A stretch of 64,000 bases of DNA from Branchiostoma floridae (Eukaryota > Chordata > Leptocardii > Amphioxiformes > Branchiostomatidae), in assembly GCF_000003815.2 (NCBI RefSeq), contig NC_049992.1, positions 4,089,769-4,153,768 on the forward strand. Reading direction: 5' to 3'. Position 1 is the first letter of the stretch. Each line of letters starts with the position of its first letter. The translations under genes and the position numbers were made by a program. This document shows positions 3,164-50,800 of this stretch, one piece after another. A model generated the notes under the pieces. That model saw nothing but the letters and a program-made list of their open reading frames with translations, was not told where the DNA came from and ran no database searches.

Positions 3164-6100
3164 CTGAGGAAGAAGTAAAAATCATGGTCTTATAAGCGTG
3201 TCTTTAATCTCTCTGCTACCCAATCCCATAACCAATACAAATTTAGTGCCGAATGGCTATTTTGAAGATTATACCTTGCCCGACATAACTTCATTGAGAA
3301 AAGGCCTTTGGGGCCGAATTGAATTTGTTAATAAAGGCACAAACAAAAGTAACAAGAAGACATCATAACAAACTGCTGCAGTAGTGACCGTAACAAGTGC
3401 TACGGAGACCAAACCAAATCTTTTTGAGGTCTCAACAAGCCCTTCCCACATACTAAGTATCAATACCATCCATCCAAGCCTTCTAGAGTTATGCTGTTTG
3501 TCGACAAACATAAATATACAAATGCTACAACTGAAAACAAAAAATTAGCCTTCTTGGCGAAGGTTAAAACCTTTTTGATCTTGTCCAAAAGTCAAGTCTT
3601 GAAGGAACATGTGAGTCATAATGATAAAACTTTGCACATAAAAAACTAACAAGCAAACAAATAAACAAACCTTTTTCGATCTTGTCCAATGACTGTGGCG
3701 GATCGTGTGAGTCCTGCTGGTAAGACTCAGGACATAAACAAACAAACAAACAAACAAACAAACCTTTTTCGATATTGTCCAACGGCTGGGGAGGACCATA
3801 TGAGTCAATATGACTTAGGACAAATAACAAACAAACTAACAAACAAACAAACCTTTTTCGATCTTGTCCAATGACTGTGGCGGATCGTGTGAGTCCTGTT
3901 GATAGAACTTAGGACATAAACAAACAAACAAACCTTTTTATCTTGTCCAATGACTGTGGCGGATCGTGTGAGTCCTGTTGGTAAGACTCAGGACATAAAC
4001 AAACAAACAAACAAACAAACCTTTCTCGATCTTGTCCAATGACTGTGGCGGATCGTGTGAGTCCTGCTGGTAAGACTCAGGACATAAACAAACAAACAAA
4101 CAAACAAACCTTTCTCGATCTTGTCCAATGACTGTGGCGGATCGTGTGAGTCCTGCTGGTAAGACTCAGGACATAAACAAACAAACAAACAAACAAACCT
4201 TTCTCGATCTTGTCCAACGACTGTGGCGGATCGTGCGAGTCCTGCTGGTAAGACTCAGGACATAAACAAACAAACAAACAAACAAACCTTTCTCGATCTT
4301 GTCCAATGACTGTGGCGGATCGTGTGAGTCCTGTTGGTAAGACTCGGGACCAGGACTGGCCCCTCCCCCCGTCTCCTGGACAGGCATGGAGGGGTCATCG
4401 CCCTCAGGCTCCAGGGCAAACGACTTCGGGTACGTCTCGTCTCCTGGAGAATATACACACAATTTACAATTGATGAGGAAAGTGTCAGAAACTTCTGCTC
4501 TCTATTTGTAGTAGAAAGTATATTCTACTACAAAATGATTTTCATCTTCTATTCCATCTATTTACAGTATTGACATATTAGTTGTTCAATGGAAACCTAC
4601 CAGGTCCATCCAGGTCATCCATGGTCCCTGCCGCCCCATCATCGCTGAAGGGCGTGGCAGCACAGGGTTTCTCCGGCTCACTCTGGTACTGCAGGCTATC
4701 CGACCCTCCTGTGGAGAGGCTGGTGCGAGCCGAGTCACCTCCACTTGGGGTACTAGTCTGGGAGCTTCTGGTTGCTACAATATAATGTCAATGAGACGAA
4801 AGGAAATTATTTCATGTTTGTATCGGGCCACAACAACGTACTTCATTGATTCTCAGTGAAGATTGAGCAAGAGGATATTGAGAAAACAGGGAGAAGAGAG
4901 AAAACCTAAAATATGCCGTTAATGCATGTGCTAGTTCACCTCATTATCTGTAGGGTAACTAATATTTGCTGTACAGTTTTTAAAAAGGCAGTTTGAAACT
5001 ACCGTCCATTGACTTGATATTCCTTAATAACTATTTTTTTACCAGATATAGTAGTAGGTATCTTTCCAATTCCACAGATGATGGTAGCACTCTGCTTGAA
5101 GTTAAGCGATAGCGATACATGAGTTTCCAGGCTGTCTCAAGCAGATATTTCCCATGGGTAAAGGAGAAATGGAGTTAATATACAACATACATGAATTGCT
5201 GCCATCAAGTAGCCCTTGGTTGTCTCTAGGGTCAATGGTGACCTCCGGATCAGCCTGTTGTCTGGCATTCTTGCGTCTGTAGAAGAAAACACCAACTACT
5301 GTGGCCAGTATTGCTACCACTGTCACAACTGCTACAGGTGCAACAATAGCCACCGTGTTGTCCGTCTGACTGTCCTCTGTGTCGGACACCTCCTGCGGAT
5401 GTTTGGGTGTAGGAGGGATTCCTAAAACAGTGGGTGCAGAAAAAAAATTCAGTTGACTGTTGTAGAAACAAGCACATCAGTTGTAAGAACAGTCAAACAA
5501 GTAGTACAACACCTTTGATTAAAGGCCCATATTCTAGGATTCATAACTGTCCCAGACTACTATAAAAAAACAAATGATTTGGTCTATCCTTTACACAAGA
5601 TCTAGAAGTCTAGCCACTAACAGTACCCTTGCAATATTCACAGAGTACAAATGTTGTACAAAGGACCATCTAAGTGGACAAAGACTTGTCTGAATTGACC
5701 AAATGCTTCATCAAGTTCCTTGAGTGGCCATTATAGACAGGTGTATCTCTTTTCTTTTCAAACAACTTTCTGGCAATATTTCTAAAAATCTATCAATTAC
5801 CTGTTGCCATGGACACATTCTGACAGACTCTGTTATGTGTCTGGTTACAGGGCGACGCCTCCCGCTGCCATTCCTCACAGATCAGACAGGCGGCGCACGG
5901 TTTCTCTGCTGATGACTTGGCAGAATACGCCTCCTCTCTGCAGGGCTCGCAAACTGTGTCTGTCTTTATGGTGGCTATCAAGGGGAAAAGAGGAAATTTC
6001 TAAATTTCTAAATTCCTAAAAGAAAACAAATTGCCTTTGATAGTAAGAGTATTTTTTTCTTTTATTCTGTTGTCTTAAGCCAGGGTGACCCAACTCAGTG

Positions 6101-47800: not shown

Positions 47801-50800
47801 CACTCAAACAGTTCATACTGCTTGTAGACAGAGCAATATTTCATTGACAACTGGATGTAGGAGTTTCCTTTTTCACAACCAATAATGTCTCTCACCTGCA
47901 TATGTTTTTGAGAGCTTCTGATTGAAGTGCTACAATTGCGACAGCTGTTTAATTCAATGTTTTACAACTTAAGTGTTTAAATAGATTTTGGGGCTTATTT
48001 TTCAGATGTCCTTGAAAGTGTCCTTGAGGTCCTGTTCCAGAAAGTTGACGTGCATCTTCAGGAGCAGTACTCACGCCAGCAGCTTATCTTTAAGAAGTGC
48101 TTCAAGCTACTCAGGGTGCTGGCAAGGTAGCTGCAACTACATGTATAAAATGCTAGTTCACCTTTTATTCACGGGGTAATATTTATCTGTTGTATTCAAG
48201 ACTAGGGTATTTAGGGATATCAAGTTGACGGACAGTGGTTTCAAACTGCAATACCGTTACCTAACAGAAATACCATTTTGAACCACTGTCCATCGACTTG
48301 ATATCCCTAAATTCCCTGTTTGTAACTAAAACGGATATAGGTTACCTCGCGGATAATGGTGAACTAGAGTTACTAACACTTCCAATCACTGAGTGACCGT
48401 ACAGCAAACCACATTTGATTTATGTAGCCCTTGATTTCATAATTAGAACATAATGCAAGATATGAAAGGATCATTTCATAGACAAAAACTAAACTCAAGT
48501 GAACAAATTTTTTTTAAGTTCTTGATCTATGAAAATCATGAAAGAGTGATTTGTCGAATCTGGTCACTTGGTATTGCAGCATGGTTGTAGTGACTAGTGA
48601 AAAGGGGTTGTTACCCAGTATTCACATATAACTGCAGCAGATTGCAGCAACTGCCAACTTTCAGACATATTGGAGCAAAGGCCCCTTCCTAACATCACAA
48701 TTCTGGTAGATTAGTATTATTTTTCTTCTTCTTCCGTATTTGAGGCTACCAACTTCAATTTGCTGAAGACTTTTGTAGCCTATATAGGAAAGTCGTGTAA
48801 AGTGCTTTCCCAAGGGCACAAGATTGGTGACACGGCGGGGTTTGAACTCAGGACCTTCTGGGCCTGAGTCAAACGTGCTGCCGATTGCGCCACACCATGA
48901 GGAACATGAGTCGAATGTGGCCAACATGCACTGTTTTGTAGGATTTAAGTCTAGATCATTCTGTCATTTTAAGCTTATGCAAAAAGATGGTGGGTTACCT
49001 TCTTTGTGCTTCATCAAGTTAAAAACATTTTGTTGTTGTTTTCTACAGAGGGAATGAGATTGTTCAGCTGCGTCTGTTTGAAAGAATGGACGACATGCTG
49101 AAAGTGAAGGGTGCCGAAGTGGAGATGGCGAAGGCCATTACTGAGGTACAACAACTTCTTACTCATATTTTCCGGCCAATTGTTAGACTGAACTATTGGG
49201 GGCTTTTGACACAGAGGGAGGGAATAGTTAGCATTTTCTTGCAAATGGTGACATGTAAATTGCAGTTATAGTTTTTGTATTTATTAGCATTTTCAGTAGT
49301 ATTAAGATGTTGACAAAGGCTAAAAAACTGTAGTGCACAATAGCAATCAAGCCAGCACCATGGACAACAACTGTAGGACTGCCTTTAGCCTTGAACTTTT
49401 TTACTATTCCACTCACTGTTTGGAAGCCTATGTAATGGATTTTTGCTGTAAAATCTGTCATTTTAAGCTTATGCAGATAAACATATTCTTCAGTTTCAAT
49501 TTCTGAGTTGCTGCTTTTTTTTTTATATATATTAAGTGAAAAAAAATGTTGTCATCCCTACAAGCAAATTTCCATTCCTGGGCACAACAGATGCCCAAAC
49601 TGGTCCTATTTTCATCCGAATGAAAGCTCATCTGTGTTGGTAAATTCCATAGTGACAAAGTTTAAACTTTGTTCCAGCAAAAAGGAAAAACTCACCATAA
49701 ATTTCCAGTCGAGAACTCCAACCTTCAGATAGATGACTCGCTGATGTTCCTATTTTCCCCAAAAACTTACAAAATCCCTCCCATTTTTCTTTCAGATCTT
49801 CACGGGAAACAAGCTGACCTGCCTGAAGGTTCAGCAGCAGCATGTGGAGCAGGTGTGGGGGCTGGTCGAGACGCACGGCGAGCTCTGCTGCGAGTTTCTC
49901 GATCTTCTCAATGCCATTGTCAAGGTGAGTATCCAGTACTTAGCTCTCTCAAACTCACTCAGTCCTGTAACTGGTGGAGACCCACGGCGAGCTCTGCTGC
50001 AAGTTTCTCAATCTGCTCAACGCTATCGTCAAGGTGAGTACACAGTACATAGCTCTCTCAAACTCACTCACTCAGTCCTATAACTGGTGGAGACACACGG
50101 CGAGCTCTGCTGCGAGTTTCTCGATCTGCTCAACGCCATCGTCAAAGTAAATGTACAGTATATAGCTCGCTCACTCACTCGCTCACTCACTCGCTCACTC
50201 ACCCGCTTGCTCGCTCACTCACTCGCTCACTCGCTCACTTGCTCGCTCGCTCACTCGCTCGCTCGCTCACTCGCTCCCTGGCTCGCTCACTCACTTGCTC
50301 ACTCACTCACTCACACACTCACACGCTCGCTCACTCACTCACTCATTCACTCACTCACTCACTCACTCACTCACTCACTCACTCACTCACTCACTCACTC
50401 ACTCACTCACTCACTCACTCACTCACTCATGCAGTACAGTGCAGGTAACAGTTGAGTTAAGCAGGTACTTCTTGCTTACCTGGACCTAACAGGCACTGCT
50501 CGATCATGAAAACGAGCCCATGAAACAAGGGTGTTCTTCATAGTTAGCAATTCCTCTATTACAGCACTCAGCAGATGGTAAAGTTAAAAATGACACTGCT
50601 AGAAACATCTTCAAAATGCTGTTTTAGGATTGAGTGAAGAGTAAGAAACAGCATCCAATCAATTAGATGTTTCATTGTTACTTAGATTTCTGGGTATCCA
50701 CTTGTGATTGTATTATATGATATTGCTGTGCTGTATTTCCAAACAATGGTTAACCAGCATCCTCCATCTTATTTCTCCCAAGGTCGAGGAACTTGACCTT

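Follow-up and report, generated by a model that had tools for sequence, protein, structure and literature searches.

Exon-edge tandem arrays, probably minisatellites of the mirage type, in two genes of the lancelet Branchiostoma floridae

The window analysed here, a stretch of 64,000 nucleotides from Branchiostoma floridae, contains two affected animal genes, a TNFR-type receptor gene on the minus strand and a gene for a divergent IP3-receptor-like channel on the plus strand:

27962-63971, plus strand: IP3-receptor-like gene, as modelled, incomplete within the window (match to IP3 receptor type 1 in PDB, E 5.2e-43)
5801-5937, minus strand: exon with a TNFR cysteine-rich repeat (PF00020, E 3.2e-08, in a translated stretch of 60 residues)

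The plus-strand protein of 1604 residues is the output of a home-made exon finder, assembled by hand with some predictions omitted; in the PDB comparison, six of the seven listed stretches are collinear with IP3 receptor type 1, and the remaining one, weak and located at 370-434, breaks the order. None of four translated stretches from this gene scored above the Pfam cut-off, and one of three from the minus-strand gene (approximately 3-8 kb) did so, the match being PF00020. The whole window gave no Rfam match at the gathering score and no tRNA gene. The exon map behind the counts below comprises 49 plus-strand and eight minus-strand exons. On the plus strand 10 of 58 predictions, weak or truncated ones, were discarded and one exon was restored to full length; on the minus strand four of 13 were discarded, two were merged into one exon and several ends were placed by eye, so that a few exon edges may be wrong.

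Repeats of other kinds are scattered through the window. A decayed minisatellite with units of about 50 bases occupies 15282-15835, a stretch in which exons were not sought; a perfect (TTTC)42 run lies at 21001-21169; and at 60589-60997 two arms of 138 bases, 97% complementary, form an inverted repeat whose loop holds an assembly gap (60727-60826). Nearly identical translations come from 10759-11098 and 17138-17594, on opposite strands and about 6 kb apart; this points to either an inverted duplication or an element present twice. The translations of 6273-6410 and 51387-51770, also on opposite strands, are similar and are perhaps those of copies of one mobile element; inverted repeat arms lie near the latter, at 51545-51579 and 51883-51917.

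At four exon edges, some 45-64 exonic bases together with the splice site are present in tandem on the intron side, and the tandem units, of about 65-165 bases, cross the exon-intron boundary in all four arrays (A to D). The arrays were found with Tandem Repeats Finder and a repeat search, after which the sequence was read directly; copies were defined by aligning the parental exon edge locally to its surroundings, the extent of the edge being set by eye. An initial annotation had placed exon-edge copies beside their parents at four places, with a shorter echo at another, and repeat search and alignment confirmed all five:

4288-4443, minus strand: array A, parent exon in the TNFR-type gene, 3' edge 4288-4351 repeated, intron from 4287 (gene model, edge and donor alignment)
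3571-4261, minus strand: array A, eight copies at 4199-4261, 4110-4172, 4021-4083, 3934-3994, 3853-3915, 3764-3821, 3671-3733 and 3571-3631
35646-35772, plus strand: array B, parent exon in the IP3-receptor-like gene, 5' edge 35646-35691 repeated
35395-35623, plus strand: array B, three acceptor-edge copies on the 5' side of the parent (acceptor at 35646), at 35395-35444, 35511-35555 and 35576-35623
40924-41070, plus strand: array C, parent exon, 3' edge 41007-41070 repeated
41172-41565, plus strand: array C, three donor-edge copies at 41172-41235, 41337-41400 and 41502-41565
about 41930-41985, plus strand: array C, decayed donor-edge copy (local alignment)
49796-49924, plus strand: array D, parent exon, 3' edge 49862-49924 repeated
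49971-50146, plus strand: array D, two donor-edge copies at 49971-50033 and 50084-50146
39916-39935, plus strand: echo E, matching the acceptor edge of exon 40028-40143 at 19 of 20 bases

The affected edge is the donor side in A, C and D and the acceptor side in B. Tandem Repeats Finder reported array A at 3648-4350 (period 89), B at 35498-35691 (70), C at 41007-41579 (165) and D at 49862-50185 (113). Array A has eight extra copies, each followed by a GT donor, in a unit of about 89 bases with spacings of 79-93; with the parent this makes nine units, and the nine copies originally reported at 3570-4340 are borne out on that count. Array B has three extra copies, each directly preceded by AG, and hence four units. 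Array C is built on a 165-base unit and, with its parent, also numbers four units; in its three extra copies all 64 exonic bases are the same as in the parent, copy number being as assembled. Three copies had previously been noted at 41007-41565; the decayed copy, missing from that account, has to be added. A hairpin element (41651-41935) lies between it and the array. Array C is flanked on both sides by a dispersed repeat of 88 bases (39733-39820 and 42500-42587), its two occurrences being 84% alike. Array D has two extra copies, as had been stated for 49971-50146 with the parent left uncounted, and therefore three units in all; its copies run into a (CTCA)n tract at 50166-50429. Echo E is preceded by no AG, and so lacks the boundary-spanning character of mirage repeats, unlike the four arrays.

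Units are of mixed age, from identical to approximately 70% identical, the extremes of identity to the parent being 64/64 in array C and 43/63 aligned columns in the oldest copy of array A. This spread of ages is an indirect hint that copy number may be unstable. In array C three units are near-identical over 165 bases, and the intronic part of the fourth diverges after about 15 bases; this layout suggests that expansion was repeated at one site. Possible older intronic relics of array C are weak (42390-42472, score 50; 41566-41628, score 42; shuffled maximum 44 in 200).

Variation among the units falls mainly at third codon positions. This applies to 14 of the 18 variable exonic columns in arrays A and D (P 0.00014; six ungapped A units including the parent, and three D units) and to 17 of the 27 distinct variable columns in A, B and D together (P 0.0015), a count that leaves out three gapped A units, the decayed C copy and echo E. 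Two of the gapped A units are much diverged, with 9 of 14 and 7 of 12 changes at third positions. Such a bias indicates that the parents evolve as coding sequence. Array B alone has no clear third-position bias, and the mismatches of the decayed C copy are spread 4, 4, 4 over the codon positions. By our reading of arrays A and D, all seven changes by which the parent differs from its copies, or which several copies have in common, are at third positions, as are 7 of 11 that are multi-state or private to a single copy; among private changes the bias is weaker, which could point, not strongly, to exchange between copies and parent.

The position of the arrays raises the question of whether exon edges are preferred. 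Where at least 34 of 40 bases had to match at shifts of at least 30, six local-repeat clusters were found in the window, four of them on exon edges (P 0.0013 against random placement with the same unit lengths). A seventh array, of 38 bases, lies at 14131; its addition gives P 0.0018. Edges were also compared with their own surroundings, and 4 of 113 testable edges scored 36 to 75, while none of 114 shuffled queries reached 28. At a score of at least 34 the counts were 4/113 edges, 0/34 exon interiors, 9/400 noncoding 40-mers and 0/114 shuffled queries; at a score of 28 one of the 34 interiors matched, that one inside array D. Seven of the nine noncoding matches fall within the four arrays and two in one array at 15.6 kb, and edge 4288, which has eight copies by alignment, was absent from the 113 edges owing to low-complexity masking. 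The corrected comparison, from which the seven within-array matches were removed and to which edge 4288 was added, any matchless within-array 40-mers having stayed in, is 5/114 edges against 2/393 noncoding 40-mers (P 0.0076).

Both comparisons favour a mutational process directed to splice sites, for example through transcription-linked or RNA-templated repair, that would duplicate edges far above background. However, both tests are post hoc and concern one window that was chosen for a noticed pattern, with a threshold picked after the data had been seen; at a looser cut (28/40) edges hold, as we grouped them, only about 4 of 14 clusters; and the four units have no common motif by eye. Furthermore, since one unit of an edge array is held by coding selection, the decay of such an array should be slowed and it should be recognisable for longer than an intronic array, so that part of the excess at edges is to be expected. 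We consider a directed process of this kind unlikely. It is likewise doubtful, if slightly less so, that exon edges are hot spots at which a splice-site-linked process keeps making copies that rotate into coding position by exchange; if that were true, intronic decoys would evolve almost like coding sequence and would form a reservoir able to replace an exon edge. The initial suggestion of a local process acting at exon edges fits as tandem-repeat (minisatellite) turnover, with or without a preference for splice sites.

Copies that carry splice sites might instead already serve, or be on the way to serving, as alternative exon ends or as small exons of their own, and repeated birth of alternative exons was also among the original proposals. 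GT or AG is retained in 17 of 18 copies, and the scores of most decoy sites are near those of the genuine sites: 4.0 in the parent and seven of eight copies of array A (1.4 in the eighth); 9.2 in the parent and 4.8, 8.5 and 7.9 in the copies of B; 4.4 in the parent and 4.4, 4.4, 4.4 and 5.0 in the copies of C; and 6.9 in the parent and 6.9 and 3.7 in the copies of D, with echo E at -4.6 against 7.9 at its parent. The peptide of the parent is also coded by four of the five ungapped A copies examined and by one of two D copies, and in lancelet PGBD5 an annotation names such repeats an exon, albeit without transcript support in the relevant passage (PMC3902484). Yet the retention of 17 sites is not clearly above the 14.7 expected from identity (P 0.11), which leaves selection to keep the decoys unsupported, and each copied piece has a single splice site. 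In all 11 cases tried, lengthening the parent exon as far as a decoy site either introduced a stop or shifted the frame (3/8 copies in A, 3/3 in B, 3/4 in C, where the decayed copy was left aside, and 2/2 in D). As alternative ends of the parent exon the copies were accordingly rejected, with none of the 11 sites keeping frame, and the birth of alternative exons is quite improbable; the site proximal to the exon body should be the one normally used.

That the arrays are an assembly artefact, arising from two divergent haplotypes or mis-joined reads as the initial annotation had allowed, is very improbable, for although there are three gaps in the window and published lancelet arrays change in copy number between one assembly version and another (2 versus 7 and 3 versus 6; PMC3902484), the arrays comprise 9, 4, 4 and 3 units of differing age, no more than about 45-64 exonic bases are present in each copy, the exon body being absent, additional sequence data bore out one published case (same source), and haplotype mis-joining would by itself give neither nine units of about 89 bases nor 3.5 units of 165.

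We regard the arrays as, very likely, exon-edge minisatellites of the lancelet 'mirage' type, to which they are linked by their anatomy. A tandem duplication would have chanced to cross an exon-intron boundary, and the array would then have grown and shrunk through slippage or unequal exchange. The unit touching the exon body would remain under coding selection, while the remaining units would be intronic and carry decoy splice sites; these are presumably tolerated because the splicing machinery takes the site contiguous with the exon body. Direct support comes from the anatomy, the intact decoy sites, the frame broken on extension, the mixed unit ages and the third-position bias; counted against it are array B and the decayed C copy, for their want of a clear bias. 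The edge arrays are most likely tolerated rather than useful. Each provides a natural experiment on how the spliceosome chooses, since one site would have to be preferred among several closely similar ones about 65-165 bases apart. If five affected edges in 114 is typical, such genomes are well suited to measuring the frequency with which new introns arise from tandem duplication, an origin proposed in PMC3087553.

Mirage minisatellites have been described, in the passages available of PMC3087553 and PMC3902484, in lancelet globin, Adh3, troponin C and PGBD5 genes, troponin C being cited as a further case in the latter; the genes named in these passages do not include the two genes here. Among the papers listed by searches that covered part of the literature, none was recognised, from titles and the beginnings of abstracts, as surveying such arrays genome-wide. 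The Adh3 mirages of Branchiostoma (Canestro et al. 2002, PMC117041, as cited elsewhere) are repeats across exon-intron boundaries like those described here, although their units are of 10-72 bases compared to about 65-165; splicing is reportedly undisturbed and somatic instability has been reported. In lancelet PGBD5, imperfect units of 60 and 108 bases adjoin a 5' splice site (PMC3902484), as those of the present donor-side arrays do, in another gene. Introns of lancelet VCBP3 are stated to hold whole or partial exon copies, in some cases with splice sites, that are similar to adjacent exons (PMC2632668); the intronic exon pieces resemble ours, but the data are not shown and the passage states no tandem arrangement. 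In the potato RdRp gene an intron is reported to have arisen by tandem genomic duplication (PMC4974935); this case shares the duplication within a gene, whereas no new intron is indicated here. A further parallel is with the globin genes BflGb6 and BflGb9, in which, according to PMC3087553, tandem units of 150-160 and 157 bases cross the intron-exon boundary, 5' and 3' boundaries are affected, many but not all units have AG or GT, and the BflGb6 units are 81-100% identical. Arrays A to D share with them the boundary-spanning units, the involvement of either exon edge and the many AG and GT kept; the globin mirages were studied with two haplotypes and RT-PCR, whereas the arrays described here are in other genes and known from one assembly. 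Mirages are a kind of unstable repeat already described, to which the present arrays would add two genes.
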